From a virus, in the IMG/VR virus record IMGVR_UViG_3300037240_000057, positions 1 through 24,731 of that record: a stretch of 24,731 bases of DNA; one strand, written 5' to 3'. This document shows, piece by piece, positions 3,084 to 23,354 of the stretch. Under the pieces are notes generated by a model. That model was not told the DNA's origin, did no database searches, and saw only the letters and a program-made list of their open reading frames with translations. Positions within the stretch are counted from its first letter, which is position 1, and every line of letters starts with the position of its first letter. Position numbers and translations under genes: made by a program.

Positions 3084-3434
3084 ATGACCGCTGCCACGGC
3101 GCCGCTGCGGCTGCCTGCGTGCCCGGGGTGCGCGGGTGGCCGTGAGGTCAACGGGGTGCCGTGCCGGGACTGCGGCGGGACAGGCCGCCAGCGCGCCGCG
3201 CCGCGCATGCCGGCCAGCTTGCGGGCGCTGGGGCGCCGCTGGTCGCTGGCCGGCGCGGAGGTGGCGGGGACGCTGGTGCGCTGGTCGGCGAGCGTCCCTG
3301 GCGTGGCCGGCGCGGCGGGTGTCACACTTGGGGTCGCGATGATCGTTCATGGTGTGTTTCACCAGGTTCCCGAGCTGGGCGTGATGGCTGCGGCCGGGGG
3401 CCTGTTCGGGCTGCTCGCCGACAGGCAGCTGTAA
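3084..3434 (+). CDS. Membrane protein with DnaJ-type zinc ribbon
   Basis: A 116-residue protein with an N-terminal CPGCAGG...CRDCGGTG pair (C13, C16, C27, C30), the spacing seen in DnaJ-like zinc ribbons, followed by an Arg-rich segment and two hydrophobic stretches at about 72-94 and 97-112 that look membrane-spanning. The ATG follows the previous stop without a gap. Inference: a cytoplasmic zinc site tethered to the host membrane; its role is unknown. A membrane protein directly before the portal gene is unusual for a structural cluster. A similar architecture recurs on the minus strand at 23716-23970 with the order reversed. Confidence 0.65.
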   Translation: MTAATAPLRLPACPGCAGGREVNGVPCRDCGGTGRQRAAPRMPASLRALGRRWSLAGAEVAGTLVRWSASVPGVAGAAGVTLGVAMIVHGVFHQVPELGVMAAAGGLFGLLADRQL

Positions 3435-3436
3435 CC

Positions 3437-4696
3437 ATGGCGGTGTTCGCCGGCCCGCTGCCTCGTGAGCGCGCCGCGGCGTCCCGCCCGGGCCGCGAGC
3501 AGCGGATCGCCCAGCTGTCGTTCGTGGCCCCGCCGGTCGGCGCGCACATCAACGCGGTCGAGGAGCTGTACGGGTCCGGGTCGCCGGAGATGGCGTTCCG
3601 GCACTCGACGGTGTGGGCGTGCGAGGACCTGCTCGGGTCGATGATGGGGATGCTGCAGCCGTGGGCGTTCCAGCTGCCCGCCACGGGCGTGCAGACGCCC
3701 ACGCCGGGCCCGGGGATGGGCCTGACGGAGGAAACGCCGCAGAAGGTGGCGAGGCAGCCGCAGATCCTCAACGAGCCGTCCGCCGACATGGACATCGGCG
3801 ACTTCCTGTACGCGGCGACGGTGTCGCTGTCCCGCGGCAACACGTACGGCAAGATCGTGAACCGGGACCGGCTCGGCTACCCGTCGCAGATCGAGCTGCA
3901 GGACAACGGGAAGGTGCAGGCCCGCCGGAAGGCGGACGGCAGCCCGGAGTTCAAGTTCGGCGGGCAGGTGCAGGACCCGGCGACGGTGTGGCACAAGACG
4001 ATTTTCCGGCCGGCCGGGTCGATGACAGGCATGTCGATCCTGTACTACGCGCAGCAGGCCGTGCGGCTGGGCCTGAACGCCGAGGAGTTCGGCAACGGGT
4101 TCTTCGAGGACGGCGCCCACCCGTCGGGGCTGCTGCTGAACGACTCGCAGGACGAGTTCAGCCAGGAGGACGCGCAGACGGTCAAGCAGAAGTTCATGGC
4201 CGCGGTGCACGGCTCCCGGGAGCCGGCGGTGATGACGGGCGGCTGGAAGTACCAGCAGGTGCAGGTCAGCCCGACTGATAGCCAGTTCCTGGACACGCAG
4301 GGCCTGTCCGACTTGAAGGTGTGCCGGTTCTTCCGGATCTGGCCGGAGATGGTCAGCGTGACGATGCAGGGCTCCAACGTCACCTACGCGAACGTGGAGC
4401 AGCGGGCGCTGGACTTCCTGACGTACACGATGCAGCGGTGGATCACCTGGTGGGAACGGAAGCTGGGGGCGATGACCCCGCCTGGGCAGTACGTGAAGTT
4501 CGACCTGTCGCCGCTGCTGCGCACCGACATCCTGACCCGGTGGACGGTGAACCACGCGATGATCGCGTCCCGCACCGTCACGCAGGACGAGGTCCGCCAG
4601 GGTGAGGACATGACGCCACTGACCGACGCGCAGCGCGAGCAGGTCAACGCGATGCCCCTGGCGCCGATGCTGCCGAGAATGAGCCAGGGACTGTAG
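3437..4696 (+). CDS. Portal protein (HK97-type)
   Basis: 419-residue portal, forming the ring at the capsid vertex through which DNA enters and to which the neck attaches. Recognised by family-typical segments: an early SPEMAFRHSTVWACEDLLGSM stretch, LSRGNTYGKIVNR, the HKTIFRPAGSMTGMSILYYA segment, GLNAEEFGNGFFEDGAHPSG, and RFFRIWPEMVSV with YANVEQRALDFLTYTMQRW near the C-terminus. Length is normal. The ATG at 3437 follows the previous stop by two bases and starts a conserved-looking N-terminus; an in-frame extension back to 3161 would overlap the membrane-protein gene. The ribosome site is poor, so it probably relies on coupling to the upstream gene. Confidence 0.95.
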   Translation: MAVFAGPLPRERAAASRPGREQRIAQLSFVAPPVGAHINAVEELYGSGSPEMAFRHSTVWACEDLLGSMMGMLQPWAFQLPATGVQTPTPGPGMGLTEETPQKVARQPQILNEPSADMDIGDFLYAATVSLSRGNTYGKIVNRDRLGYPSQIELQDNGKVQARRKADGSPEFKFGGQVQDPATVWHKTIFRPAGSMTGMSILYYAQQAVRLGLNAEEFGNGFFEDGAHPSGLLLNDSQDEFSQEDAQTVKQKFMAAVHGSREPAVMTGGWKYQQVQVSPTDSQFLDTQGLSDLKVCRFFRIWPEMVSVTMQGSNVTYANVEQRALDFLTYTMQRWITWWERKLGAMTPPGQYVKFDLSPLLRTDILTRWTVNHAMIASRTVTQDEVRQGEDMTPLTDAQREQVNAMPLAPMLPRMSQGL

Positions 4697-4706
4697 GAGG
4701 CCGGGA

Positions 4707-6236
4707 ATGGATGAGGCAGTGCGCCGGGAATTGCGCCGTCAGCGGCGGATAGCGATGCAGGGCATGCCTGAGCGGCTGGGGATGTCGTTCACGCCCGGGG
4801 TCGCGCTGACTGCCGGGATCAGCCGGATTGAGATGCGGGCGAAGCCGAACGGCACCGCGGCCGGGTCGAACTTCGAGTTCACCGGCTACGCCACGGTGTA
4901 CGGCACTGAGTTCGACATGTGGGATCCGGCCGGTGAACCGTACAGGGAGTACGTCGCACCGGGGGCATGCAAGCGGTCGCTGTCGAATCCAAATCTGGAT
5001 GTGCCGTTCCTGATCGGGCACGACGACGGCGACATCGCGCTGGCGCGGACCAGGTCGGGGACGATGCGGCTGGCCGAGGACACCCACGGGCTGCATGTGC
5101 AGGTGCCGTCGATGGACGGCAGCCTTGAGAGAGTCCGTCAGCTCGCCAGCGCTGTTAAGCGTGGCGACATGAGCGAGATGTCGCTCGCATTTGTGTGCGT
5201 GCAGCAGCAGTGGGATGACAGTTTCGAGCGGCGCGGCGTCATGCAGATGGAACTTAACCGCGGTGACGTGTGCGCGGTGGTCCACGGCGCGAACTCGGCG
5301 ACGGCCGGTGTGTCGATGTCCCCTGTCGAACTGCTCGCGGCGCGGCGCCCGGTGCTGATCGGGCGCCCAATGCGCGAGCGGCGGATGCCGACCCAGCCGT
5401 ACGAGCGGGGCGCTGACGAGCATGTGACCTGCTTGCAGTGCCAGTCGGGGAACGACGCGGACGCCCGCTACTGCGACCAGTGCGGCAACGGGATGCGGCC
5501 GCTGATGGACTACGCCGGGGACCCGGACGACACGCAGGAGTGCCGGTGCGGGCTGTGGAACGCGCCGGACGCGAAGATCTGCGACCAGTGCGGGCAGGGG
5601 CTGGCCAACGACCACGACGCGGACGACGGCTACCCGTCGCTGACAGGCTGGGCGGCTGGCCGGCCGCTGGAGCGGCGCGCGGCGGTCAGCGCCGCAGACC
5701 AGAACGACCTGCCGGACAGCGATTTCGCGTACATCGAGCCGGGCGGCAAGAAGGACGCCGAGGGCAAGACGACGCCCCGGTCCAAGCGGCACTTCCCCGT
5801 CCAGGACGCCGCGCACGTCCGCAACGCGCTGGCCCGGGCGCCGCAGTCCCCGTTCGGCGGCAAGGCCATGCCGGGGATCAAGGCGGCGGCCGGGAAGCAC
5901 GGCGTCGACGTGGCCGGGCAGCACGCCTCGGCACGGCCGCTGGAGCGCCGCGCGTCGGCCGAGGAGGACATGGACCTGGCCGCCACGCCGGACTACAACC
6001 CGGCCCCTGTCGCTGCTGGGCTGACGTGCCCGCAGTGCCAGGCGGGGAACGACGGGGGCGCGAAGTTCTGCGACCAGTGCGGTCACGGCTTCGCGACGGG
6101 CGCGACGGTGACCGTGGATGACTCGACGGGCATCCCGGGCCCGGAGACGCAGATGGCGGCGGCCCGCAAGCTGGAGCTGCTCACCAGGGAGCTCGACCTT
6201 GAGGAGCTGGCGTCACACCGTGTAGCCTGCGCTTAG
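4707..6236 (+). CDS. Prohead protease with three zinc ribbons and a DUF6582-like domain
   Basis: 509 residues, about twice the usual size of HK97-family (S78-like) proteases that cut scaffold and capsid delta domains. The protease occupies about 40-210: His105 in LIGHDD and Ser159 in MSEMSLAF are the likely catalytic residues. Then come zinc ribbons with C242/C245/C256/C259 and C279/C281/C292/C295, a motif PLERRA (320-325), a DUF6582-like stretch (about 334-402, including HFPVQDAAHVRNALARAPQ), a second PLERRA (411-416), and a third ribbon C441/C444/C455/C458. The ribbons share NDADARYCDQCG-type sequence, so they arose by internal duplication. AGGAGG at 4695-4700 fixes the start. The extension could serve as a built-in scaffold; that is inference. 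Confidence 0.9.
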   Translation: MDEAVRRELRRQRRIAMQGMPERLGMSFTPGVALTAGISRIEMRAKPNGTAAGSNFEFTGYATVYGTEFDMWDPAGEPYREYVAPGACKRSLSNPNLDVPFLIGHDDGDIALARTRSGTMRLAEDTHGLHVQVPSMDGSLERVRQLASAVKRGDMSEMSLAFVCVQQQWDDSFERRGVMQMELNRGDVCAVVHGANSATAGVSMSPVELLAARRPVLIGRPMRERRMPTQPYERGADEHVTCLQCQSGNDADARYCDQCGNGMRPLMDYAGDPDDTQECRCGLWNAPDAKICDQCGQGLANDHDADDGYPSLTGWAAGRPLERRAAVSAADQNDLPDSDFAYIEPGGKKDAEGKTTPRSKRHFPVQDAAHVRNALARAPQSPFGGKAMPGIKAAAGKHGVDVAGQHASARPLERRASAEEDMDLAATPDYNPAPVAAGLTCPQCQAGNDGGAKFCDQCGHGFATGATVTVDDSTGIPGPETQMAAARKLELLTRELDLEELASHRVACA

Positions 6237-6361: not shown

Positions 6362-6367
6362 CGTTTG

Positions 6368-8065
6368 ATGCCTGACGACGGCCATGATCTGACTGGCCAG
6401 CTGGAAACCCGCCGGACGTCCCTGATCGGCGCGAACCGCGAGATCCTGTCGGCGGCGTCGGCGGCGTCCCGGGCGACGACGGCTGAGGAGGACACGCGGT
6501 ACGCCGCGAACATAACGGAGATCCGGGCGCTGAACCAGCGGCTGGACGACCTGGGCGACCAGGCGCAGCGTGAGGAGCGCGCCCGGGCGGCCCGCGCCGG
6601 GAACGCCGGGATCGCCGACGACCACGGCTCCGGCGCCCGCGCGTCCGGCGTGCAGGTCACCTCGGAGCCGATGATTTACGGGCAGCACAGCCCGAACAGT
6701 TACTGGGCGGACCTGGCCCGTGACGCGTTCTCCAACGGCGACGGCGGCGGCGGACTCGACGCGTCCCGGGAGCGGCTGGGACGGCACGCCGCTGAGCTGC
6801 GTGTCGAGCTGCCGAACCGGCGTGAGCGGCGGGCCCGCGCGGCGCAGGAGCGTGTCGAGCGGCTGCACACCGCGTCGCGGCGTGAGGAGCTGGCGTTCGA
6901 GCGGTTCCTCGGCTCGGGTGTGAACGTTTTCGAGACCCGGGCGCTCAACAGAACGGATGGCACGGGCGGGTATTTCGTGCCGCCACTCTGGTTGGTTGAC
7001 GAATATGTCGCCTACCTGCGTGCGGGCCGCACTCTGGCGAACCTGTGCAACTCGATGCCGCTGCCTTCCGGCACGGACTCGATCAACCTGCCGCGGATCA
7101 CGACTGGCACGGCGACTGGCGCCCAGGCTTCTGACGGCGGCCCTGTGCCGGGCCGGGACATGGCCGACAACTACGTCAACGCGCTGGTCCGCACCGTGGC
7201 CGGGCAGGAGGACGTGGGCATCCAGCTGCTGGACCAGTCCCCGATCGCGTTTGACTCCGTGATCACGAAGGACCTGATGCAGGATCACGCGATGCAGGTC
7301 GATGGCCTGGTGATGCTGGGTTCCGGGTCGTCTGGCCAGATCACGGGCCTGTACCCGCAGGGCACGATCACCGGCGGCAGCACTCCGGGCATCATCGTCA
7401 ACGGCGTGACCGCCTCCACCGCGGGGGAAGTCTGGACCGGTGGCGACAGCGGGCGCAACGACTTCTACTCCGGCGTCGGCCAGCTGTTCTCCCAGATCGG
7501 CAGGAACCGGTTCCAGCGGGCGAAGGCGCTCGTCTCCAATGAGGCGGTGTGGAACGCGTTCGCGACAGCGGTGGACGGGAACAAGCGGCCTCTCGTGCCG
7601 CCGTCCAACCAGGGCCCGTGGAACGCGGCGGCGACTGGTGACTTCGACCCGGGCGCGCCGGATGAGGGCCCGGTCGGCACGATCCTGGGCCGCACCTGGT
7701 ATGTGGACAACAACATCCCGCTGACCTTCGGCGGGGCGACGACCAGCCCGGGCATGTCCAGCGTCTCCGCCGGGCACGTGTCACCCACGGACGGCTCCGG
7801 GTCGGGGGACACGTTCACCCCGGTCATCGCGGGCGTGTTCGACGACCTGCTGCTGTTCGAGGGCGAGGTGCGGACCCGCGTCCTGCAGGAGATCCTGTCC
7901 GGCACCCTGCAGGTCCGCTTCCAGATTTACAGCTACCTGGCGTTCCTGCCGAACCGTTACCAGGACGCGAACTCCCGGATCATCTCCTATGGCAACGTCA
8001 ACTCGGGGACCACGACCGCGGCGGCGCTATCGACCGGCACCGCCGGCGGATTGGTGGGCTTCTGA
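6368..8065 (+). CDS. Major capsid protein with N-terminal delta domain (HK97 fold)
   Basis: 565-residue shell protein. The first ~190 residues are charged and helical (LNQRLDDLGDQAQREERAR and later Arg-rich repeats), as expected for a scaffolding delta domain removed by the prohead protease. The shell fold begins near NRTDGTGGYFVPP (194-206), a typical mature-start region, and continues with LPRITTGTATGAQASDGGPV, AGQEDVGIQLLDQSP, a GLVMLGSGSSGQITGL stretch and GEVRTRVLQEILSGTLQVRFQ near the end. ATG 6368 is preceded by GGAGG; a TTG just before it is not needed. Lying after the protease, it is the expected substrate; a cut near FETR-ALNR is plausible but not shown. Confidence 0.95.
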   Translation: MPDDGHDLTGQLETRRTSLIGANREILSAASAASRATTAEEDTRYAANITEIRALNQRLDDLGDQAQREERARAARAGNAGIADDHGSGARASGVQVTSEPMIYGQHSPNSYWADLARDAFSNGDGGGGLDASRERLGRHAAELRVELPNRRERRARAAQERVERLHTASRREELAFERFLGSGVNVFETRALNRTDGTGGYFVPPLWLVDEYVAYLRAGRTLANLCNSMPLPSGTDSINLPRITTGTATGAQASDGGPVPGRDMADNYVNALVRTVAGQEDVGIQLLDQSPIAFDSVITKDLMQDHAMQVDGLVMLGSGSSGQITGLYPQGTITGGSTPGIIVNGVTASTAGEVWTGGDSGRNDFYSGVGQLFSQIGRNRFQRAKALVSNEAVWNAFATAVDGNKRPLVPPSNQGPWNAAATGDFDPGAPDEGPVGTILGRTWYVDNNIPLTFGGATTSPGMSSVSAGHVSPTDGSGSGDTFTPVIAGVFDDLLLFEGEVRTRVLQEILSGTLQVRFQIYSYLAFLPNRYQDANSRIISYGNVNSGTTTAAALSTGTAGGLVGF

Positions 8066-11883: not shown

Positions 11884-12236
11884 TGGTCACGACGCGGATC
11901 ACGACGACAGGCGCTCTCGGCGGTGGCGGCGATCTGGGCGCGGCGGCGCAGGTCATCGCGGACCGGGCGAAGGTGATGGCCGGGTGGTCGGTGAAGATCC
12001 CCCCGAAGATCAGGGTCTCGGTGTCCGGGAACGTGGCGACGATCTCGTGCGACGCCGGGCCGGCGTACCCGAACGAGGTGGCGGGGGTGCGGCATCCCAC
12101 GTTCGGCCGCGATCCGTGGGTGACCAACGCGCACCGGCCGTTCCTCGGCCCGGCGGCGGACGCCGGGGCGGACGCGGCGATGGCCCGCTACGCAAAGAAG
12201 GTCGACAAGATGTGCCGGGCCGCTGGCTACAGGTAG
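11883..12236 (+). CDS. HK97 gp10-like neck protein
   Basis: 117 residues. The segment RHPTFGRDPWVTNAHRPFLG followed by a terminal helix (AMARYAKKVDKMCRAAGYR) matches the C-terminal pattern of HK97 gp10-like neck/minor capsid proteins, and the N-terminal helix (AAAQVIADRAKVMAGW) also fits. These normally lie before the tail terminator and tube; here the gene follows the tube, an unusual order. It has no ribosome site of its own and shares TGATG with the tube gene. A longer in-frame start at 11622 would overlap the tube gene extensively and is not favoured. Confidence 0.65.
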   Translation: MVTTRITTTGALGGGGDLGAAAQVIADRAKVMAGWSVKIPPKIRVSVSGNVATISCDAGPAYPNEVAGVRHPTFGRDPWVTNAHRPFLGPAADAGADAAMARYAKKVDKMCRAAGYR

Positions 12237-12253
12237 GAAGGCAAAACCCCCTC

Positions 12254-12622
12254 ATGAGTGAAGTGACAGACCAGAGCGCCGAGATACGCGAGCAGGTGGC
12301 CGAGGCGATCAGCCCTCGCGCCTTCGGCGTCGATTACGGGTTCGACGTGTGCTGGATGGCGGCGCAGGTGCCGACCGCGCAGGGCCCCCGGATGATGCCG
12401 GTGTACATGCTCCTGATCACCCGCCGCTCCCCGCTGCTCGGCCAGCCCCCGCTGTCCCATCTGGCGCAGATACCGTTCGCCCGGCCGACGGACGCGCAGA
12501 TCGATGAGCAGGTGGCCGAGGGCCTGCGGCTGCTCGCCGAGCTGTTCGAGACGCTGAAGAAGCCCCCGGCCGCCCCGCCCGCCCAGAACGGCCGGGCGCT
12601 CGTGAACGGGCGTGGCCGGTGA
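12254..12622 (+). CDS. Hypothetical protein upstream of tail chaperone
   Basis: 122 residues, no recognised family. Helical N-terminus, a central hydrophobic strand-like part (MMPVYMLLITRRSPLLG) and a C-terminal helix (EQVAEGLRLLAELFETLKK) followed by a Pro/Ala tail. The ribosome site is AGGAAGG at about 12236-12242. The stop shares GTGA with the following chaperone gene, so they are probably co-translated; a role in tail assembly is inferred from position only. Confidence 0.6.
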   Translation: MSEVTDQSAEIREQVAEAISPRAFGVDYGFDVCWMAAQVPTAQGPRMMPVYMLLITRRSPLLGQPPLSHLAQIPFARPTDAQIDEQVAEGLRLLAELFETLKKPPAAPPAQNGRALVNGRGR

Positions 12623-13044
12623 AGATCGACTTTGAAGGCCGGGTGTGGGAGTTCGACCCGGACACGGTCACCGTCCAGCAGGGCATCGCGATCTGGCTGG
12701 CCCACGGCCTGACCCTGCTCGACTGGGAAGAAGGCATGGAACGCGGCGACCCGCGGGCGCTGCAGTCCACGTACTGGCTGATGCTCACCCAGGACGGCGC
12801 CGTCAAGCCGATCAAGGACTGCGACTTCGCTGTCGGCCCGTTCTCCCAGGCGCTGGCCGCCGCCCAGGAAGCCGCCGCCCAGGAAGCCGCCGCCCAGGAA
12901 GCCGCCGCGGCGGCGAGCGCACCAGCCGTGGAGCCGGAGCCGGTCCCTACCCAGCCGGGCGCTCCTCCATCACCGGAGCGACCCTCCCCGACGGATACGA
13001 CCCCGCCGCCGAGCGGGCAGGAGGCCGCTCCTGGCACCGCGTAG
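12619..13044 (+). CDS. Tail assembly chaperone, short form (gpG-like)
   Basis: 141 residues starting at a GTG that overlaps the upstream stop. Lambda gpG-type proteins bind the tape measure and tube subunits during tail assembly. The first ~90 residues look folded (VWEFDPDTVTVQQGIAIWLA, STYWLMLTQDGAVKPIKDCD); then come AAAQE repeats and a proline-rich tail that is probably only a read-through of the unshifted frame. Position right before the tape measure is diagnostic for this role. A longer form made by frameshifting is described separately. Confidence 0.75.
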   Translation: MKIDFEGRVWEFDPDTVTVQQGIAIWLAHGLTLLDWEEGMERGDPRALQSTYWLMLTQDGAVKPIKDCDFAVGPFSQALAAAQEAAAQEAAAQEAAAAASAPAVEPEPVPTQPGAPPSPERPSPTDTTPPPSGQEAAPGTA

Positions 13045-13205
13045 AGACCCAGAGCCTGCGGGACCTGCGCGCCGAGTACCTGTTCGGCCTGGCCCACATC
13101 TGCCACATCGGGCCGCGTGACGTGGACCGGCTCACCGTGACGGACTTCGCCGGCCTCATCGACGCGATCGACGCCTACCTGAAAGCAAGCAAGCCACCGG
13201 AGTGA
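12619..13205 (+). CDS. Tail assembly chaperone, probable -1 frameshift fusion (gpG-T-like)
   Basis: The -1 frame (relative to the short form) is open from about 12636 to 13205 and after the stop at 13044 encodes a protein-like segment: LRDLRAEYLFGLAHICHIG, then DRLTVTDFAGLIDAIDAYLK. Between about 12950 and 13110 this frame has no ATG or GTG start, so the segment is reachable mainly by a -1 slip from the short frame, as for lambda G/GT. The fusion would be about 195 residues. No XXXYYYZ heptamer is present in the short frame; a single-tRNA slip at CCCT (12945-12948) is one candidate. The shift point itself is not resolved. Confidence 0.6.
12856..12900 (+). repeat. Three tandem 15-bp repeats
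   Basis: Three perfect copies of GCCGCCGCCCAGGAA encode AAAQE three times in the tail chaperone frame. In the -1 frame the same bases give RRPGS-type sequence. The array lies upstream of the presumed frameshift. As multiples of three, copy changes leave the frame intact. Confidence 0.9.
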
Positions 13206-13216
13206 GGTGACACAGC

Positions 13217-15400
13217 ATGGCCGGAACCCTGGTGAAGTCCGTCATGCTGAAGATCGTCTCCAATGACGGTGACACCGAGTCCAAGCTTGACCTGATCACG
13301 AAGAAAGCCGACGAGCTTGGCCGGCTGCACCCCGACATCAAGGTGAAGATCGACTCGGCGGCGGCCAGCGCGAAGCTCGGGGTGCTGCGGCAGGAGCTGA
13401 AAGACACCACGAAGGCCGAGAAAGACACCGGGGACCAGTCCGCCACCCTGAAGAGCCGGCTGGCGGGGCTCGCCGGGGGCATGAACTCGTTCGCGACCGG
13501 GGGCCTGTCCGGCGGCGGGGCCGCCGGGGGCATGACCATGGCGCAGAAGGCGATGCTGGGCCTGAACGTCGCCACCGGCCTCGGCGAGCCGCTGGTCGCC
13601 GGGCTGACCGTCGCGGTCGGCGGCCTGGGCGCGGGCCTGGTGTCCGCGGGGCTGGGCGCCGGGATTTTCGGGCTGGTGACCAAGTCGGCGTTCTCCCAGG
13701 TGACGGCGGCGAACACGGCGGGCAAGAAGCTGACCGGCGGCCTGGGCGAGATGCAGTCCAGCCTGAAATCCGCGACGGGCGAGTGGAACGGCTTCGTGAA
13801 AGCCGCGTCGCCGGGGGTGGCGTCGGTGATCGCGCAGGGGTTCGGGCTGATCCCCAAAGCCCTCGCGCTGATGAAACCGTTCCTGGCCCCGGTGGAGACG
13901 GCGCTGCACGGCATCATCGCCGACATCTCCCACGGGATGGACAGCTCCGGGTTCAAGTCGTTCATGGGCACGATGGCGAAGGACAGCGGCCCGATGCTCA
14001 CCGGGCTGGCCCACGCCATCGGGGACATCGTCGTGGGCCTGGGCGGGATCCTGCGGGCGTTCATGCCGGTCTCGCATTCGATCATGGGCGGCCTGGACGG
14101 CATCACGGCGAAGTTCGCCAAGTGGGGGACGACCCTCGGGTCGCACTCGGGGTTCCAGTCGCTGATGGCCACGTTCAAGACCGAGACGCCGCTCGCGGTC
14201 AATGTCCTCAAGCAGCTCGGCGGGGTCATCAAGACCGTCGTCGCGTCGATGACCGGGCTGTCCACCTTCAGCAACTCCAAGATGCTGCTGCAGATGGCGC
14301 TGCCTGTCCTCCAGCTGCTGAACTCGCTGCTGAAAGCCAACCCGCAGCTGGTCCGCCTCGGCCTGTACATGCTGGCCGCGAAGGACGTGGCGTCGAAGAT
14401 GGCGCCCGCGTTCGCGGGCGTGGCGACTGGCATCAAGGGGGTGAAGGCGGGCGCGTCTGCGTTCCAGGACCTGTCGTCCGGGTTTTCGAACACGTCGGCG
14501 GCGGCGTCGGACGCGTCCGGGGTGTGGGGCACGTTCGGCGGGAAGCTGTCCACGGCGATCACGGCTGTCAAGTCGTGGGGGATCTGGTCGAAGCTCGCGG
14601 GCGCGGCGACGAAGGTGTGGACCGGGATCCAGGCCGCGTTCGACCTGGTGATGGACGCCAACCCGATCGCGCTGGTCGTCATCGGCATCGCCGCCCTGAT
14701 CGCGATCATCGTCATCTGCGTGATCAAGTTCAAGGCGTTCCGCGAGTTCTGGATCGGCCTGTGGAAAGACGTCAAGTCGTTCCTCGGCGACGCCGTGTCG
14801 TGGATCAAATCCCACTGGGAGCTGCTGCCCCTCATTTTCATGGGCCCTATCGGCATCGTGGTGGCCCTGGTCAAGTCGCATTTCACGCAGATCAAGTCGA
14901 TAGCCATGTCGGTGATCAATGACGTCGTCGGGTTTTTCCGGGCCCTGCCGGGGCGGGTCATCTCGGCGATCGCCGGGCTGGGCGGGATGCTGTTCCGGGC
15001 CGGGCAGAACGTGATGCGGTCCCTGATCTCCGGCCTCACCTCGATGATCGGCGCGGTCGGGTCGTCGGTCGCGGGGATCGCGGGGAAGGTCGCCGGGTTC
15101 TTCGGCCTGTCCCCGGCGAAAGAGGGCCCGCTGTCCGGCGCGGGCGCGCCGGAGGTCCGCGGCGCCCATTTCAGCCACGCGTTCGCGGCGGGCGTGTCGT
15201 CAGGCGCTGGGCGGGTGGCCGGCGCGGCGGCGCGGGTGGCTGGCGCGGCCGCGGCCACCGCGGCAGGCGGGGCCGCGGCGGGCGGCGGCGGGGGTGGCCG
15301 GAACGAGCTGGTCCTGACGTTCGCTGAGGGGCCGTTCCGGACGGCGTTCAAGGCGTCGATACGCAACCACGGCGGCAACCCGCTGGTGATCGGGAACTAA
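13217..15400 (+). CDS. Tail tape measure protein
   Basis: 727 residues. It sets tail length and is injected ahead of the DNA. N-terminal charged helices (LDLITKKADELGRLHPDIKV), long Gly/Ala-rich helical and hydrophobic tracts (LVSAGLGAGIFGLVTKSAF), a strong membrane-type stretch at about 482-505 (IALVVIGIAALIAIIVICV) and an Ala/Gly-rich C-terminus. At about 0.15 nm per residue the tail would be roughly 110 nm (rule of thumb). GAGGTGA precedes ATG 13217. The gene directly follows the chaperone frameshift region, which fixes the assignment. No peptidase or lysozyme domain is visible. Confidence 0.95.
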   Translation: MAGTLVKSVMLKIVSNDGDTESKLDLITKKADELGRLHPDIKVKIDSAAASAKLGVLRQELKDTTKAEKDTGDQSATLKSRLAGLAGGMNSFATGGLSGGGAAGGMTMAQKAMLGLNVATGLGEPLVAGLTVAVGGLGAGLVSAGLGAGIFGLVTKSAFSQVTAANTAGKKLTGGLGEMQSSLKSATGEWNGFVKAASPGVASVIAQGFGLIPKALALMKPFLAPVETALHGIIADISHGMDSSGFKSFMGTMAKDSGPMLTGLAHAIGDIVVGLGGILRAFMPVSHSIMGGLDGITAKFAKWGTTLGSHSGFQSLMATFKTETPLAVNVLKQLGGVIKTVVASMTGLSTFSNSKMLLQMALPVLQLLNSLLKANPQLVRLGLYMLAAKDVASKMAPAFAGVATGIKGVKAGASAFQDLSSGFSNTSAAASDASGVWGTFGGKLSTAITAVKSWGIWSKLAGAATKVWTGIQAAFDLVMDANPIALVVIGIAALIAIIVICVIKFKAFREFWIGLWKDVKSFLGDAVSWIKSHWELLPLIFMGPIGIVVALVKSHFTQIKSIAMSVINDVVGFFRALPGRVISAIAGLGGMLFRAGQNVMRSLISGLTSMIGAVGSSVAGIAGKVAGFFGLSPAKEGPLSGAGAPEVRGAHFSHAFAAGVSSGAGRVAGAAARVAGAAAATAAGGAAAGGGGGGRNELVLTFAEGPFRTAFKASIRNHGGNPLVIGN

Positions 15401-15409
15401 GGAGAGACC

Positions 15410-15868
15410 ATGACTGTGAACGGGCACGTGTTCCCGCAGTTCATCATTGGCGTGAACCTGGGCGACATCTCGCTTCCCGGCGGGACGTGGAAGGTCGCCC
15501 TCGGCAACGTGGCGGGGCCGATCAGCCTGGCGACGGCCGGGATCTCGACGGCGAAGCTGTTCAGCGACTGGACGGCGATCGTCCCGGATATCACCGGCCC
15601 CGGCTACACGGCGGGCGGCGTGGCGGTCGCCAGCCCGACCTGGTCGGCTGGCGGCGCGAATAACAGCATCGCGACGTTCACTTCCAGCACGAATCCGTCA
15701 TGGACGACGGCCACGTTCAGCGCCAACCAGGCGGTTCTTTACCAGTCGTCGGCCAGCACGTATCAGCTCGGGGCTTTCTTCGATTTCGGCGGGGCGGTCC
15801 CGGTGACCGGGGCGACGTTCACCCTGACGATCAACGCCTCCGGCCTGCTCACCGCGACCGTCTCCTAG
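15410..15868 (+). CDS. Small structural (minor tail) protein
   Basis: 152 residues, strand-rich and dominated by Thr/Ala/Gly/Ser (GTWKVALGNVAGPISLATAG, TASTYQ-like segments, ending VTGATFTLTINASGLLTATVS). A strong AAGGAGAGACC site precedes ATG 15410. The final strands resemble repeating beta modules of phage virion proteins. The pattern suggests a minor tail or baseplate-associated protein; no family is recognised. Confidence 0.65.
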   Translation: MTVNGHVFPQFIIGVNLGDISLPGGTWKVALGNVAGPISLATAGISTAKLFSDWTAIVPDITGPGYTAGGVAVASPTWSAGGANNSIATFTSSTNPSWTTATFSANQAVLYQSSASTYQLGAFFDFGGAVPVTGATFTLTINASGLLTATVS

Positions 15869-15882
15869 GGAAGTGACCTGAC

Positions 15883-16470
15883 ATGCCTTCAACCCTCTGG
15901 TCCGCGCCGTCGTCGCCGGGGAACGTCGCCCCGGTGGTCTCGTCCGGCTTCACGACGGCGACCCTGACGGACATCTCCCCCGGCCAGTGCCTGATACCCG
16001 CTGGGATGCTGAACGCCGGCACCCGGGTGCGGATCACCGCGACGGGGTCCTACATCGCCACCACGACGGCGTCCACGATCACGTGGGGCCTGTACATGAA
16101 CAACGCGGGAACCGCGATCACGACCACCCCGGCGATCCTCACGACCACCCCGGCGATCACCGCTGTGGCCATCTCGGGTATCACGTGGGTCCTGCAGTGG
16201 TGGGGGAAGATCACGGCGGTGTCCACCACGTCGGGCACCGCGGGCACGATCGTGGGCCACGGGACCGCGTTCGCCGGCCTGACGTCCCTGACGGCCGCTG
16301 GCGCGGTGTACCCGATGCCGGTCACGACAGCCGGGATGACGGTGGCGCAGACGGCGACGGGCCTGATCACCTACAACGAGCAGAACATCATGGTCGGCGC
16401 GACGATCGCGACGAACACGGGCCTGACCAGCATCACCACCGACGAGCTGACCTGCGAGCTGGTCGGCTGA
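15883..16470 (+). CDS. Small structural beta-rich protein
   Basis: 195 residues, highly enriched in Thr/Ile/Ala, with segments such as ALTDISPGQ-like loops, PAGMLNAGTRVRITATGSY, TWGLYMNNAGTAITTTPA and VLQWWGKITAVST. This is the pattern of jelly-roll head or tail decoration proteins. AGGGAAGTGA lies upstream of ATG 15883. It follows the previous gene by 14 bases and precedes the large tail gene by 38. A role as tail accessory protein is likely; a host-binding role is possible but unproven. Confidence 0.6.
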   Translation: MPSTLWSAPSSPGNVAPVVSSGFTTATLTDISPGQCLIPAGMLNAGTRVRITATGSYIATTTASTITWGLYMNNAGTAITTTPAILTTTPAITAVAISGITWVLQWWGKITAVSTTSGTAGTIVGHGTAFAGLTSLTAAGAVYPMPVTTAGMTVAQTATGLITYNEQNIMVGATIATNTGLTSITTDELTCELVG

Positions 16471-16508
16471 CCTTTCCCCGCACCGAGCGCGCCGGAGGGA
16501 GGTGAAGC

Positions 16509-19500
16509 ATGACGATCAGCCGGGCAGCCGGGTTCCCCGTGGGCGGGGGCGACAGCTCCAGCGGCGGCGTGACCAGCGTCACGGTCAGCCCGGCGGCTAT
16601 TGGCGACCTGGTCGTCGTCTCCGTGTTCATCGGCTCGACGAGCATCACCGTCTCCGGGGTGTCCGGCGGTCACGCGACCGGGTGGGCGCGGGCCGAGGGC
16701 TTCACCGACAGCACCTCGACGCTGCGGGCGGAGATCTGGATAGGGACGGCCACCGCCACCGGGTCGGCCGCCGCCTCCGTCACCTTCTCGGCGTCGATCT
16801 CCACGACGTACGTCGAGATCGACGCCGACAGCCTGCACAGCTCTATCGGCGGCCCCTGGTCGGTTGTCGCTTCTGGTGGCCAGCACGATGTCACGGGGAC
16901 GTCCAACCCATTTCCGCCGCTGACCGCGACGGTGACCGGGCAGGCGTACTGGGGCATCGACAGCCCGGCGAACACGCCGTCGGCGGGCAGCGACAGCGGG
17001 TTTGTCTACAACCTGCTCGACAGCTCGTTCGTGTGCACAGCGCTGAACGTGGCCGTGACGGCCGGGACTGTGGCCCCGAGCGCGGGCCAGTCCCCGACGG
17101 GGACGGCGACCACCGTGGCGATCATCGTCACCGACGCGTTCAGTGCCGCAGGCGGCCCCAGCATGCCGTTCATGCCCGCCCCGGGCTGGCATCCGGGCCT
17201 GGGCCTGCCGGGGATGCCGGGCGGGACGCCGTTCTACGCGCCGCAGGCGCTCAGCAGCCCGCCAGCGGCGCCGACCGTCACGGTCACACTCCCGGCAGCC
17301 GCCGTGACCCTGGCCGCGCCCATCGTCGCGCCGGCCGCGGGCGCGACGATCGCGCTGCCCGTGGCCACGGCCGCGCTGGCCGCGCCGGTCCCGTCAGTGA
17401 CAGCGGGGGCTACGGTCGCACTTCCAGTGGCTGCCATCGCCCTGGCCGCGCCGGTGGTCACCCCGGCGACCGCGGTGCTGCTGCCCACCGCCACAGTGGC
17501 GCTCGCGGCCCCGGCCGCGACGCCTGCCGCGGGCGCGACGGTGGCGCTCCCGGCAGCAGCCATGGCGCTGGCCGCGCCCGTGGTGACGCCCAGCGGCGGC
17601 CCAGCGCCGTTCGACTCCCTGCCGTCCACGACGTTCCCCGCCACACCCCTCGACGGCCGGGTGGAGCTTCTCCTCGGCGGCGTGTGGACAGACGTCACCA
17701 GCTACCTGGTGCAGCCCCTGGACTCCGTCGTCCCGATCACCCGCGGCCACCCCGACGAGTCCACCACCACGGCCCCGTCCGGCGTCCCGCTGACCCTGTT
17801 CAACGGCGACGGCCGGTTCAGCGGCAAGAATCCGACCGGGCCTTACTACGGGCAGCTGGCGCGGAACACGCCGCTGCGGTTCAGCATCCCTGAAGGCGCA
17901 AGCTACCTGCGCAGCGAGGTGGACCAGGCCAGCTACGTCCAGTGCCCGGACACGGCCGGCATCAGCATCACCGGCGACATGGAATTCCAGCTCGACCTGA
18001 CCCTGGACAACTGGAACTCCTCCCAGATCCTGGCGGCCAAGTGGGCGTCCGGGCAGGCGTCGTGGCTGCTGCTGCTGTGGAACGACGGCACCCTGCAGTT
18101 CCAGTGGTCCCAGGACGGCTCGTCCATCAACGCCGCCCGCACGAGCGTGAGCGTGCCGCTGCCGCCGTCGCGACGCATGTCCCTGCGCGTCACCCTCGCG
18201 GTGGCCACGGGCACCGTCACCTACTACACAGGGCCGCCGGGGCTGTCCAGCCCGTCGTGGACGCAGCTGGGCAGCCCGATCGTCCTCGGCGCGAACAACG
18301 TGTTCAACTCCACCGCGCCGCTGCAGATCGGCTACGGCCCGTCGTCGGGCACCGGGTTCTTCGGCTACTACGGCAAGCTGCACGCCGCCCAGCTGCTGTC
18401 CGGCATCGGCGGCACCGCGAAAGCGTCGCCGGACTTCACCGCCCAGACGCCGGGGACCACCAGCTTCAGCGACGCGCAGTCGAACACGTGGACGCTGGAA
18501 GGCACCGCGGAGATCAGCGGCCGGGACTACCGGATCCACGCCGAGGCCAGCGCCTGGCCGCAGTTCTGGGACCCCACCGGCCACGACGTCACCGTCCAGC
18601 TCACCGCCGCCGGGCCGCTGCGCCGCCTCGGCCAGAACGCGAACAGGCAGGTGTTCGCCTCGGCGATGCGCCGCGCCTACCAGCGGCTCACCGGCCCCAC
18701 CGCGCCGGTCGCCTACTGGCCAGCCGAGGACGGCGCGAACTCCACGCAGATCGCGTCCGGGCTCGGCGGCCCCGCCATGCAGGTGTCGGTCCCGCCGCAG
18801 TTCGGCGGGAACTCCGGCTTCCTGTGCTCCAGCCCGATCCCCGCCCTGGCAGCGGGCTCCACGTGGTCCGGGGCGGTCCCCGCCTACACCGGCGGGGTGG
18901 ACAACGTCCTGCGGTTCCTCATGCAGGTCCCGGCGGCCGGCGACGTCAACGGCGGGATCATCGCCCGCATGTACACCCGGGGCACCATCACCCGCGCCGA
19001 CCTCGTCTACGGCACCGGCGGCGGCCTGACGATGAACGTCTACCAGGGCTCCACCCTGCTCAGCTCGTTCGGGCCCTTCTCGTTCAGCGTCAACGGCGAG
19101 CTGCTGCGCGTCAGCCTTGAGCTGCAGGCGTCCGGCGGGAACGTCTCCTGCAACATCGTGACGCTCCAGGTCGGCGCGTTCTCCGGCATCGGCGACGGCG
19201 GCACGCAGACCGGCGCGACCGTCGGCAACGTGACCCAGGTCGTCATCAACCCGGGCGGCCTGCTCACCGGCACCGCGATCGGGCAGATCTCGGTGCAGCC
19301 GGTGTGGGAGACCCTCTACGACCTGGGCTCGGCGCTGAACGCGTGGCAGGGCGAGGCGGCCGGGGCCCGGTTCAAGCGGCTCTGCGACGAGGAGGCCATC
19401 GTGTTCCGCGGGCAGGGGAACCTGGCCGCGTCCACGCCGATGGGCCCGCAGACCCCTGAGGCGCTGACCACGCTGTGGCAGGAATGCGCCGACGCGGACC

Positions 19501-20387
19501 GGGGGGCCATCTACGAGCCGCGGCAGCAGCTGGCCCTCGGCTACCGCACCCGCGCGTCCATGCTCAACCAGGGCGCGGCGGCCGCCATCCCGTACTCGAT
19601 GCTGATGGCCCCTTTGCTGCCCACCGAGGACGACCAGATCATCGCCAACGACGTGACCTGCACCCAGAACCAGGACGGGTCGTTCAGCGAGCAGGCGCAG
19701 GCGACGGGCCCGCTGAACATCCAGTCCCCCAGCCAGGACCCGGACGGGGTGGGCCGGTACGCGGTGAGCGTGCCGGTGAACCTGGCCGCTGACAGCCAGC
19801 TCGACGGCGAGGCGTCGTGGATCCGGCACATGGGCACCGTGGACGAGCCCCGCTACCCGGCGCTGTGCGTCGACCTGGCGTCCACCGAGAGCGGCGTCGC
19901 GTCGATCTTCTCCGCCCTGCTCGGCCTGGACATCGGGGACCGGGTCACGGTCACCGGGACGCCGCCGTGGCTGCCGCCGGACGGTATCGACCTGCTGATC
20001 CAGGGCGTGACGGAGAACATCTGGCTGAAGAAGCTGAACCTGTCGCTGGCGTGCGTCCCGTCGTCGCCGTGGAACGTCATGACGTGGAACGACCCGGTGT
20101 GGGGCCGGTGGGCCAGCGACGGCTCTGCGCTCGCCGCCGGCGTCTCAAGCTCGGCGACGTCGCTGAGCGTCTCGACCACAAACCCTGGCAGCCCGCTGTG
20201 GACCACGTCGGCCGGCGATCTCCCGTTCGACATCCTGGTGGCTGGCGAGCGGATGACCGTGACCGCGATCAGCGGCGCGTCCAGCCCGCAGGCCTTCACC
20301 GTCGTCCGCAGCGTCAACTCTGTTGTGAAAGCACAGACGGCGGGCGCGCCGCTCACCCTGTTCTACCCGCCGATCTGGAGCCTCTGA
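16509..20387 (+). CDS. Large multidomain tail protein (Dit/Tal-like with lectin-like domains)
   Basis: 1292 residues, the largest protein here. Order: beta-rich N-terminal domain (1-215), a short Pro/Gly/Met hinge (216-245), five Ala/Pro repeats (259-364), a Dit-like region with VWTDVTSYL and NGDGRFSGKNPTGPYYG (385-460), a concanavalin/LamG-like module (464-631), a baseplate-like region, a second LamG-like module (about 730-930), and a C-terminal baseplate hub-type part (RFKRLCDEEAIVFRGQG, then TEDDQIIANDVTCTQNQDGS), ending in a small beta domain (1205-1290). GGAGGGAGGTGA precedes the ATG. It probably forms the tail tip and contacts host sugars. Domain limits are by eye. Confidence 0.85.
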   Translation: MTISRAAGFPVGGGDSSSGGVTSVTVSPAAIGDLVVVSVFIGSTSITVSGVSGGHATGWARAEGFTDSTSTLRAEIWIGTATATGSAAASVTFSASISTTYVEIDADSLHSSIGGPWSVVASGGQHDVTGTSNPFPPLTATVTGQAYWGIDSPANTPSAGSDSGFVYNLLDSSFVCTALNVAVTAGTVAPSAGQSPTGTATTVAIIVTDAFSAAGGPSMPFMPAPGWHPGLGLPGMPGGTPFYAPQALSSPPAAPTVTVTLPAAAVTLAAPIVAPAAGATIALPVATAALAAPVPSVTAGATVALPVAAIALAAPVVTPATAVLLPTATVALAAPAATPAAGATVALPAAAMALAAPVVTPSGGPAPFDSLPSTTFPATPLDGRVELLLGGVWTDVTSYLVQPLDSVVPITRGHPDESTTTAPSGVPLTLFNGDGRFSGKNPTGPYYGQLARNTPLRFSIPEGASYLRSEVDQASYVQCPDTAGISITGDMEFQLDLTLDNWNSSQILAAKWASGQASWLLLLWNDGTLQFQWSQDGSSINAARTSVSVPLPPSRRMSLRVTLAVATGTVTYYTGPPGLSSPSWTQLGSPIVLGANNVFNSTAPLQIGYGPSSGTGFFGYYGKLHAAQLLSGIGGTAKASPDFTAQTPGTTSFSDAQSNTWTLEGTAEISGRDYRIHAEASAWPQFWDPTGHDVTVQLTAAGPLRRLGQNANRQVFASAMRRAYQRLTGPTAPVAYWPAEDGANSTQIASGLGGPAMQVSVPPQFGGNSGFLCSSPIPALAAGSTWSGAVPAYTGGVDNVLRFLMQVPAAGDVNGGIIARMYTRGTITRADLVYGTGGGLTMNVYQGSTLLSSFGPFSFSVNGELLRVSLELQASGGNVSCNIVTLQVGAFSGIGDGGTQTGATVGNVTQVVINPGGLLTGTAIGQISVQPVWETLYDLGSALNAWQGEAAGARFKRLCDEEAIVFRGQGNLAASTPMGPQTPEALTTLWQECADADRGAIYEPRQQLALGYRTRASMLNQGAAAAIPYSMLMAPLLPTEDDQIIANDVTCTQNQDGSFSEQAQATGPLNIQSPSQDPDGVGRYAVSVPVNLAADSQLDGEASWIRHMGTVDEPRYPALCVDLASTESGVASIFSALLGLDIGDRVTVTGTPPWLPPDGIDLLIQGVTENIWLKKLNLSLACVPSSPWNVMTWNDPVWGRWASDGSALAAGVSSSATSLSVSTTNPGSPLWTTSAGDLPFDILVAGERMTVTAISGASSPQAFTVVRSVNSVVKAQTAGAPLTLFYPPIWSL
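17283..17600 (+). repeat. Five imperfect Ala/Pro repeats within the tail protein
   Basis: Residues 259-364 of the large tail protein consist of five units of 20-22 residues with consensus VALPxAAxALAAPVVTPAxG. The DNA repeat is degenerate, so divergence followed the duplications. Alternating hydrophobic and proline content suggests an extended, stiff linker between the N-terminal domain and the tail-tip core. Confidence 0.8.
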
Positions 20388-20388
20388 G

Positions 20389-20802
20389 ATGACAACTCCC
20401 TACCCCCTGGCCGGGCAGCTGGCCGAGGCCGCGAACGTGTCGCCCACCGCGTGGGTCGCGTTCACCTTCGCGAACTCGTGGTCCAACATCGGCGGCGGTG
20501 TGGTCACCGCGCAGATGCGGCTGCTGCCGCTGACCAATGAGGTCGAGATGCTGGGCGGCATCGCCCACGCGTCGGTCAGCGGGACGTCGCTGTTCTCGGC
20601 GACGCTGGGGGCGGCGTACCTGCCAGCCTCACAGCAGAGCCGCTGCCTGGAGAAAGTGGTCGCCGCCTCGGCCACTTACTACGCCGCCACCACGGTGGGG
20701 CCGTTCGTGGTCATCCCGACCACCGGCGCCATCCAGTTCCAGGACTTGCCTGCGGGCACGACGCAGGTCGAGTTCGCGTTCACCTACAGCCTGGACGCGT
20801 GA
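20389..20802 (+). CDS. Small tail-associated protein
   Basis: 137 residues. Strand-rich: WVAFTFANSWSNIGGGVVTA, EMLGGIAHASVSGTSLFSAT, TTVGPFVVIPTTGAIQF, ending QVEFAFTYSLDA. The pattern resembles C-terminal receptor-binding or tail-fibre accessory modules. ATG 20389 lies 1 base after the tail protein stop with GGAG at 20377-20380. Proposed role: tail-tip or fibre component; not established. Confidence 0.6.
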   Translation: MTTPYPLAGQLAEAANVSPTAWVAFTFANSWSNIGGGVVTAQMRLLPLTNEVEMLGGIAHASVSGTSLFSATLGAAYLPASQQSRCLEKVVAASATYYAATTVGPFVVIPTTGAIQFQDLPAGTTQVEFAFTYSLDA

Positions 20803-21185
20803 TGGGCCACATCCTGTGGATCCTGTTCGGGCCGGGGACCTATGGCGCGGGCGGCAACATGGTCGCCTGGGTGATCTGCGGGGCGATCGCCGGACTGTGG
20901 CTGCGGGGCCGGCTGAAAGCACACGAGGCGCTGGCCCGGCTGCATCACCAGCAGAAGATGGCGCAGTCGCAGGCGAATCACGACGCGCTGATCGCGCATG
21001 TGACGGCGACGGCGACGCTGGCGGTCACGGCGGCCGAGCCGCAGGTAAGCGGAGGTAGCCGGTCGCAACCCGGCTCGATGGGTTTGCCAGAAGAGAGCGC
21101 GCTGGTCCCGCCTCCCGCCGCCGCTGACCCGGCGTGGGGCAAGGCGGAGGACGCGTGGAAAGACGCGCTGCCGCCTAGTCCGTGA
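20802..21185 (+). CDS. Single-pass membrane protein, holin-like position
   Basis: 127 residues. Short hydrophobic start (MGHILWILFG), a membrane span at about 19-35 (NMVAWVICGAIAGLWL), then a basic amphipathic helix rich in His/Gln (LKAHEALARLHHQQKMAQSQ) and a disordered tail. The ATG overlaps the upstream stop; a GTG three bases earlier is also possible. It opens the lysis/host-interface block, so it may be a holin or membrane accessory. Its 3' end overlaps a convergent minus-strand gene by 11 bases. Confidence 0.6.
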   Translation: MGHILWILFGPGTYGAGGNMVAWVICGAIAGLWLRGRLKAHEALARLHHQQKMAQSQANHDALIAHVTATATLAVTAAEPQVSGGSRSQPGSMGLPEESALVPPPAAADPAWGKAEDAWKDALPPSP

Positions 21186-21354
21186 GTTCGGCCATGAACC
21201 GGAAGGTGATCTCGGTCCCGTCGGTGAAGGTCATCACCCAGTAGCCGTCGTCGTTGCCGATGCCGTGGTCGTACTCCAGCGATACGACTATCTTCCCTGA
21301 TGACTGCCCGCTGATCTGCCGTCGCTGCTCAGCCGTGTATTCCATGTCCGCCAT
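21175..21354 (-). CDS. Small minus-strand hypothetical protein
   Basis: 59 residues. It reads MADMEYTAEQRRQISGQSSG, then KIVVSLEYDH, and ends with YWVMTFTDGTEITFRFMAEL, a coherent strand pattern with G/C-rich third positions, so it looks coding. The start at 21354 was chosen over an upstream GTG-type extension; the second ATG three codons in is also possible. It is the only minus-strand gene inside the late plus-strand block. Unknown function; a small regulator or anti-host protein is possible but not supported by a motif. Confidence 0.55.
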   Translation of the reverse strand: MADMEYTAEQRRQISGQSSGKIVVSLEYDHGIGNDDGYWVMTFTDGTEITFRFMAELTD

Positions 21355-21416
21355 GTTCTCACCGAAAGGCGCGCTGCCGCCGGAGCGCTGACCACGCTGT
21401 TTGCCCTGCGCCGGCG

Positions 21417-21427
21417 GATAATAAGGC
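21417..21427 (+). promoter_or_regulatory. Candidate promoter for a leaderless GTG gene
   Basis: GATAAT at 21417-21422, close to the actinobacterial -10 consensus TANNNT, lies five bases before the GTG at 21428, which has no usable ribosome site (only AAGG directly before it). This fits a leaderless transcript starting at the GTG. No clear -35 box is seen. The 73-bp gap to the divergent minus-strand gene would be the shared control region. Confidence 0.4.
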
Positions 21428-21985
21428 GTGAGCACCGACGACGACCTCCACGCCCGCGACCGGGAATCGCAGACCCGCTATGAGATGGCCACCGGTGTCG
21501 TCGCAGAGCCAGCCGGGGAATCCGGCTGGGTGTCGCTGCGGGACCACCTTGAGGCGCTGCGGGGCGGTGACGACCGGCGGTACGCCGAAGTAGGGAAAGA
21601 ACGCGACCAGCGGTACGCCGAGGTGAAAGCCGAGCAGGAAAAGGCGCTGGTCATCAAGGACACGGCGAACCGCGACGCCCTCGCGCTCGCCCGCCAGGAC
21701 CAGACGTACAAGGACGAGCAGGCGAACAAGCTCCGTGAGCAGATCAACTCCGAGCGGGGCCTGTACGCCACGAAGGACGACCTGGCGAACGCGGTGCGGG
21801 AGATGACGGTGCAGATCCGGCCGCTGGCCGAGTACGTGTCGGCGTCCGCTGGCCGTCAGGGCGGTGAGCAGCACATCCGCACTGAGCAGCGGCTGAACGC
21901 GAACCTGGTGGTCGGCATGGTGGCGCTGCTGCTGACGGCTGTCATCATCGCGGTATCCATCACCGTGGCGGCGCACGGTGGGTGA
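21428..21985 (+). CDS. Coiled-coil membrane protein with C-terminal anchor
   Basis: 185 residues. A long charged helical region (about 40-130), with repeats RRYAEVGKERD and QRYAEVKAEQEKALVIKD, then LARQDQTYKDEQANKLREQI, precedes a strong membrane span at 159-182 (VVGMVALLLTAVIIAVSITV). This 'YAEV...EKAL.IK...YKDEQANKLREQI' pattern is familiar from actinophage lysis regions. Probably an N-in, C-out membrane protein, holin or spanin-like; assignment is positional. Possibly leaderless (see promoter). Confidence 0.75.
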   Translation: MSTDDDLHARDRESQTRYEMATGVVAEPAGESGWVSLRDHLEALRGGDDRRYAEVGKERDQRYAEVKAEQEKALVIKDTANRDALALARQDQTYKDEQANKLREQINSERGLYATKDDLANAVREMTVQIRPLAEYVSASAGRQGGEQHIRTEQRLNANLVVGMVALLLTAVIIAVSITVAAHGG

Positions 21986-22157
21986 CATCGAGGACGCCGA
22001 GCGGCTGGTCAAGCGCCGGGCAGCCGAAGGTAAAGGCCTGTCCCTCAAACGATCTCGCAAAACTCTCGTACCCGCCAGTAACGCCGGGCAGATGCTCCTG
22101 GCCGCCGCCCTCGCCGCCGGTGCCGTAGTGGCCGTGATCGCCGTGTTCGGGCGGTGA
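21978..22157 (+). CDS. 59-residue membrane protein
   Basis: Starts at GTG 21978, overlapping the previous stop by 8 bases. Basic N-terminal half (RLVKRRAAEGKGLSLKRSRK) followed by one hydrophobic span (MLLAAALAAGAVVAVIAVFG) and a short end. The charge pattern suggests the N-terminus stays in the cytoplasm. Tight overlap and strand agreement support a real gene. Possible holin accessory; function unknown. Confidence 0.6.
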   Translation: MGDIEDAERLVKRRAAEGKGLSLKRSRKTLVPASNAGQMLLAAALAAGAVVAVIAVFGR

Positions 22158-22223
22158 AGAGAGCATCATGGGTGCCATGAACCAGCCTGCGGACAGGAGG
22201 CACGCCATGGGAGGCGACGACTG

Positions 22224-22343
22224 ATGCTCGGTGACGGCGGTCCCTGGGGCAACGGTGACAGCTACAAGGTCGAGCGCCCGGAGCTGCCCGCCTACGGCGC
22301 GGTGCTCGTGGTCCGGCCGCCGTGGTTCCGGGTGGGCCCGTGA
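22224..22343 (+). CDS. 39-residue hypothetical protein
   Basis: ATG 22224 follows a good GGGAGG site (22209-22214). The product begins MLGDGGPWGNGDSYKVERPE and is followed by AYGAVLVVRPPWFRVGP. It is short and unrecognised, but the ribosome site and context favour translation. It lies between the membrane genes and the lysin. A still shorter ORF upstream (22168-22224) is not called. Confidence 0.45.
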   Translation: MLGDGGPWGNGDSYKVERPELPAYGAVLVVRPPWFRVGP

Positions 22344-22389
22344 CCCGGTTCACGGTGCCGCGGGTGGCCCACTGCGACGGAGGGGTGTC

Positions 22390-23007: not shown

Positions 23008-23019
23008 GGAAGGAACATC

Positions 23020-23193
23020 ATGTGGGCTATCGCTGCGGCGTTCGCGTTCGCGGTCGCATTGCTCCTGGACCTCGCCGACCTCAGCAAGGGGCATCTCAAC
23101 GTGACCACGTTCGCGCTGATCGGCCTGCTCTTCGTCGCGCTGCACCTGGCGTGGCCCGCCTTCTACCCGTGGCGTAACCGGACGGCGGCCTGA
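23020..23193 (+). CDS. 57-residue two-span membrane protein, holin candidate
   Basis: ATG 23020 with AAGGAAGGAAC upstream. Two hydrophobic stretches (WAIAAAFAFAVALLLDLADL and TFALIGLLFVALHLAWPAF) flank a short polar loop, ending in WRNRTAA. It follows the lysin by 12 bases, the classical place for a holin in actinophages. Below the usual size cut-off for gene callers. Confidence 0.65.
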   Translation: MWAIAAAFAFAVALLLDLADLSKGHLNVTTFALIGLLFVALHLAWPAFYPWRNRTAA

Positions 23194-23194
23194 C

Positions 23195-23266
23195 ATGGAC
23201 CTGGTCGGCCTGCTGGTGCTCATCCTCGTGATCTGCGTGGTTTTCTGGCTGGTCAGGCACCGCTAA
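23195..23266 (+). CDS. 23-residue membrane micro-peptide
   Basis: ATG 23195, one base after the previous stop. Sequence MDLVGLLVLILVICVVFW then LVRHR: a single hydrophobic helix with a basic end. It is the last + strand gene before the palindromic gap. Too short for certainty, but the helix is clean and the gene abuts its neighbour. A membrane accessory peptide is plausible. Confidence 0.5.
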   Translation: MDLVGLLVLILVICVVFWLVRHR

Positions 23267-23286: not shown

Positions 23287-23308
23287 GGTTCCCGCAGGTC
23301 AGCTAGCC

Positions 23309-23351: not shown

Positions 23352-23354
23352 TAC

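Follow-up and report, generated by a model that had tools for sequence, protein, structure and literature searches.

The gene at positions 4707 to 6236 of the window (the whole 24,731-nt stretch of viral DNA analysed here) encodes an S78 prohead protease, in which the catalytic core is followed by a mosaic extension of small, exchangeable cassettes and by a conserved tail. Judging by the E-x-R motif in its linkers, the protease is likely to take its own tail apart while the head is being assembled. More specifically, we propose an S78 protease with cassettes on flexible linkers that cuts itself at E-x-R together with the delta region of the capsid protein, a reading that we consider somewhat likelier to be right than wrong. 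It builds on the anatomy of the protein, the pattern of exchange among its relatives, a motif common to linkers and capsid protein, and the positions of the linkers in the structural model. The features concerned are the following (window positions and strand; arrows mark candidate cuts).

4707..6236, + strand: S78 prohead protease of the HK97 type, 509 aa, extended by cassettes at its C-terminal side (open reading frame; Pfam PF04586, E 6.5e-22)
4827..4841, + strand: IEMR↓A, E-x-R just upstream of the core, a possible but weak N-terminal cut (20 of 27 aligned proteins; low-confidence segment 20-52)
4866..5306, + strand: S78 catalytic core, residues 54-200 (Pfam; model confidence mostly 75-93)
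5019-5021, + strand: candidate catalytic His105 (invariant, 27 aligned proteins)
5181-5183, + strand: candidate catalytic Ser159 (invariant, 27 aligned proteins)
5373..5387, + strand: RERR↓M, junction 1 (residues 223-226), separating the core from the ribbons; candidate cut site (21 of 27 aligned proteins have E-x-R here; low-confidence linker 209-228)
5424..5603, + strand: zinc ribbons 1 and 2, residues 240-299 (Pfam DZR, E 3.9e-10; model confidence about 57-87)
5661..5685, + strand: 25-nt direct repeat flanking the DUF6582 module, left copy (92% identity between the copies, which are 273 nt apart)
5664..5681, + strand: PLERR↓A, junction 2 (PLERRA, residues 320-325), candidate cut site (alignment; low-confidence stretch 303-346)
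5679..5921, + strand: DUF6582-type module, residues 325-405 (family of 80+ viral proteins; mean model confidence 87.7)
5934..5958, + strand: 25-nt direct repeat, right copy (L006 has the repeat once and lacks the module)
5937..5954, + strand: PLERR↓A, junction 3 (PLERRA, residues 411-416), the most conserved candidate cut site (E-x-R in 23 of 24; low-confidence linker 406-436)
6021..6095, + strand: zinc ribbon 3, residues 439-463 (Pfam Zn_Ribbon_1; slot His-rich or DnaJ-like in relatives)
6102..6233, + strand: conserved tail VTVDDSTGIPGPE..., ending in helix 479-508 (alignment of relatives, dN/dS, model)
6368..8065, + strand: major capsid protein, beginning with a delta region of about 191 residues (residues 201-417 match Pfam Phage_capsid, E 3.6e-14; phrog_2263)
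6929..6952, + strand: FETR↓ALNR, predicted capsid maturation cut (relatives' capsid proteins have E-x-R in the corresponding position)

The assignment of the core is clear. Peptidase_S78 covers residues 54-200 with 78.9 bits against a cut-off of 21, the protein matches phrog_80 (E 1.5e-22), and the gene order is portal (3161-4696), protease, HK97-fold capsid protein (gene 6365-8065). We take His105 and Ser159 to be the catalytic pair. Three contigs are identical where they overlap the window. The nearest genome matches are to Kitasatospora, Streptomyces and other Actinomycetota, and an actinobacterial host is likely by this sequence comparison. Ten open reading frames tested further along (11984-23911, including two of 727 and 1292 aa) gave no Pfam match at E <= 0.01.

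A preliminary description of this DNA had recognised, besides the protease, three zinc ribbons, two PLERRA motifs and a stretch resembling DUF6582 in the protein, and this layout was borne out by the 509-aa frame and the Pfam matches. In the extension, DZR (PF12773, residues 242-296) and Zn_Ribbon_1 (PF13240, residues 441-460, E 8.2e-08) scored above their curated cut-offs, while DUF6582 (PF20223, residues 355-403) stayed below its own, with an E-value of 0.0077 and 17 bits versus 27.3. Structure prediction yielded a folded core, ribbons, module helices and tail helix; the whole-protein model does not predict how the domains are placed relative to one another (pTM 0.40).

The ribbons combine four cysteines in two knuckles with a profile match. 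The first knuckle of ribbon 2 is CxC, not CxxC, as is also the case in L114, L135, L137 and L138. Ribbons 1 and 3, 597 nt apart, are 81% identical over 67 nt and ribbon 2 is a looser third copy, which confirms that they are internal duplicates. Paired cysteine knuckles are common to the DZR and Zn_Ribbon_1 families and the window protein, but in the window, unlike in these families generally, the ribbons are fused to a capsid protease. Zinc binding in a protease of this kind had been called unusual. This is true of the isolated phages in the collection searched, none of which matched with a ribbon-bearing protease, but ribbons were seen again in some 20 viral contigs from the environment and at a locus of one Kitasatospora genome. 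In the prophage-like locus L200, from Kitasatospora sp. MAA4, the nearest relative that can be cultivated, a single ribbon is present. Most of the cassettes, the ribbons included, are putatively metal-binding.

An alignment of about 25 related viral proteases showed that the region between the catalytic core and the conserved C-terminal helix is a mosaic with three slots. Slot 1 holds either the double zinc ribbon or a DPDGDGDCD loop that resembles a calcium loop (L111, L112, L126, L130). Slot 2 is occupied by DUF6582 in the window protein, L103, L105, L127 and L129 and by an LPDGSYPI module in L104, L106, L107, L111, L115, L126 and L130, and it is empty in L006 and L108. These two modules fall in the same place of the MAFFT alignment, and hhalign gives a probability of 8.5% over 18 columns for their relationship. 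Slot 3 contains a zinc ribbon, a His-rich stretch (L103, L107, L127, L130) or, in L105 and L129, a DnaJ-like zinc motif along with a His-rich stretch, and is followed by the tail helix. Mapped on the core tree, the states of slots 1, 2 and 3 changed at least 7, 5 and 6 times, respectively, with labels set by regular expressions and with the incomplete L112 and L113 left out. Most homologous cassettes display dN < dS, a pattern that is clearest for ribbon 3 and for the tail. That unrelated putative metal-binding motifs replace each other in one slot suggests that metal binding itself is under selection. We also looked at synonymous divergence as a sign of recent cassette transfer; a difference was seen only in L105 (p 0.03) and L006 (p 0.02), both p values being uncorrected, and we make no claim of such transfer.

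Cassette-free S78 proteases (for example L142 and L201) stop soon after the core, whereas in the window protease the cassettes, their linkers and the tail add about 280 residues. L140 and L142 consist of the core and a short C-terminal segment only, which suggests that the tail is older and that the cassettes were inserted ahead of it. The middle cassette is missing from a number of relatives, and L140 and L142 have no cassette at all, so S78 function in general can do without them, a point that weighs against our main reading. As a separate observation, the nearest syntenic relative, L006, has about 550 nt between its protease and capsid genes (1484-2030) that are absent from the window.

The linkers between these cassettes share a short motif. 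Ahead of the last cassette, E-x-R is found in 23 of the 24 aligned proteins that have this column, usually followed by Ala, a count in which relatives share ancestry and are not independent events, and in which MAFFT may favour aligning charged linkers. Over all extensions, E-x-R occurs 59 times where shuffling predicts 16.4, that is, 3.6 times more often than expected, and Ala is the next residue in 32 of these 59; the control motifs D-x-R (13 versus 26.5) and R-x-E (5 versus 16.4) are rarer than expected. In L105, the motif flanks ribbons, DUF6582, the His-rich stretch and the DnaJ-like motif alike. It is absent at some junctions, namely before slot 3 in L106 (ELLASAAED) and at junction 2 in L104 and L107. 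Because E-x-R also occupies conserved positions inside the folded core (alignment columns 164 and 199), the motif by itself is no proof of cutting, and its position matters. Junctions 1-3 of the window protein all lie in low-confidence stretches of the model between folded parts. The comparison thus speaks for the earlier proposal that the two PLERRA motifs are self-cleavage sites, in that E-x-R is shared by the capsid site and by linkers whose surroundings vary, and the linkers have low confidence in the model; what has to be revised is that the motif is wider than PLERRA and that its duplication is partly a repeat at the DNA level.

This repeat leads to the strongest competing explanation, in which the E-x-R linkers are merely recombination joints or solubilising spacers and the motif is copied along with the cassettes but stays uncut. 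The two PLERRA copies form a 25-nt direct repeat of 92% identity around the module, only one copy (PRERRAS) is present in the relative L006, which lacks the DUF6582 module, and the core tree shows much turnover of cassettes, all of which such an explanation would account for. The simplest reading of the sequences is in fact that the module was gained or lost by recombination at the repeat, a history that would be compatible with cutting. However, copying does not readily explain why different versions of the motif (E-L-R, E-Q-R, E-R-R, E-E-R, E-F-R) preserve it in the protein sequence, why it matches the site in the capsid protein, which has no cassette, or why it is also found in the cassette-free L140 and L142. 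We therefore regard joints or spacers without cleavage as unlikely, though as an explanation to be taken seriously.

In all the neighbouring capsid proteins listed, the mature domain is preceded by FETR↓A, FEQR↓A, FEKR↓A, FERR↓A or another E-x-R, with the start of the mature protein deduced from alignment position.

Two further roles for the extension had been suggested in the preliminary description. As internal head proteins, the ribbons and the basic DUF6582 module would stay with the DNA, be delivered to the host and act there on nucleic acid or proteins. The DUF6582 region is indeed basic (pI 9.2), and DUF6582 recurs with zinc motifs in other head-gene proteins (L024, L027, L036, L071). 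Against this, ribbons 1 and 2 (pI 4.1) and the extension as a whole (pI 4.8) are acidic, the replacement of cassettes by non-homologous ones is a poor fit to one specific host target, and prohead propeptides are generally expected to exit the head (PMC10052503); we consider this role improbable. That the extension is an integral scaffold or a size-determining core in head assembly is very improbable: fusions of DUF6582 to several protease families and to scaffold-like coiled-coil proteins would fit it, but the extension of the window protein consists of small separate folds, it shows no long coiled coil and its sole long helix is the final one of 30 residues (479-508), most cassettes are missing in relatives, and a scaffold is not needed, given that some 191 residues ahead of FETR↓A already serve the capsid protein as a delta region.

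Returning to self-cleavage, we can outline how it might proceed. The protease would enter the procapsid with its extension still attached, probably anchored there by the C-terminal helix. Once active, it would cut the delta region of the capsid protein at F-E-x-R before Ala, and its own linkers at the matching E-x-R before Ala or Met, which would set the core free and reduce the extension to small fragments, either lost from the head or retained with the DNA. Exchange of cassettes between phages might take place via the similar linkers. Before cleavage, the cassettes would most likely serve for binding inside the procapsid or for delaying protease activity. We also raise, with considerable reserve, the possibility that in this phage clade, whose hosts are probably actinobacterial, exchangeable non-homologous cassettes with putative metal-binding motifs act from fixed slots as metal-dependent timers or procapsid anchors, each flanked by the cut site of the protease itself, with the entire device being destroyed at maturation.

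To our knowledge, the way in which a prohead protease is restrained until the shell is complete is poorly understood. Swappable, putatively metal-binding cassettes on linkers predicted to be self-cut would offer a concrete and testable handle on it. A precedent for the window protease comes from the T4-like head maturation of phage SPN3US, in which gp245 removes its own C-terminal propeptide of 64 residues in vivo; long propeptides in the family of gp245 are cut at several sites. That protease belongs to another family and has another cleavage preference, and no metal-binding cassettes are reported for it in the portion of the source at hand (PMC10052503 for all of these statements).

The DUF6582-type module extends far beyond these proteases. 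Pfam gives no function for PF20223, and a literature search for DUF6582 found no papers in the library searched, in which two papers, a mobilome analysis and a phage genome/proteome study, mention both a prohead protease and a zinc ribbon. By profile comparison, the window stretch belongs with some 80 further viral proteins in a single family (E about 1e-26 to 1e-43). Searching viral contigs with a 14-row alignment returned at least 530 relatives among 599 candidate stretches. We scanned 80 proteins with Pfam, 79 of them module-bearing plus L006. PF20223 was reached at E <= 0.01 by 36 of these, and L008 passes the cut-off with 27.7 bits; a conserved block is common to the window copy and the PF20223-matching members. 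The modules are mostly attached to prohead proteases: 48 of the 80 proteins also match S78, 4 an XkdF-type protease and 3 a Mu-like protease, while 3 match a capsid family. The module precedes the core in L031, L060, L062, L095 and L100 and follows it in the window protein and L014; because it can stand on either side, we regard it as a recurrent appendage of head proteases. DUF6582 thereby gains a clear context, since it is found mainly as an add-on to head proteases of phages, and these belong to several families.

Folded in isolation by AlphaFold, the module consists of strands and two helices (mean confidence 87.7, pTM 0.76). Searches for relatives of this fold gave none in the PDB (best E 6.4) and none below 0.2 by sequence, but viral matches included the prohead protease A0A6J5NJ62 (probability 1.00, E 0.052) and the 661-aa protein I3VYW8 at 50% identity. 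The latter has the same length as Tsac_2860 of Thermoanaerobacterium phage THSA-485A, a head-gene protein that also contains a DUF6582-type module (37.6% identity over 149 residues). Unlike the window protease, Tsac_2860 has 661 aa, no CxxC motifs and an S78 match at E 0.013 only.

Other proteins combine the module with zinc motifs in different ways. In L024 (3635-5263), L027 (3410-5491), L036 (3470-5470) and L071 (3707-5482), a DnaJ-like zinc motif lies ahead of DUF6582 in coiled-coil-rich head-gene proteins; those of L024, L027 and L036, which were scanned singly, gave no Pfam match to S78. L015 (4530-6422) carries ChaB, a zinc ribbon-like motif and DUF6582 fused to a Mu-type head protease. 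In L035 (3893-5275), DUF6582 and an S78 core occur in one protein together with a DnaJ-like CxxCxGxG zinc motif; their order differs from that in the window, and this appears to be a separate case.
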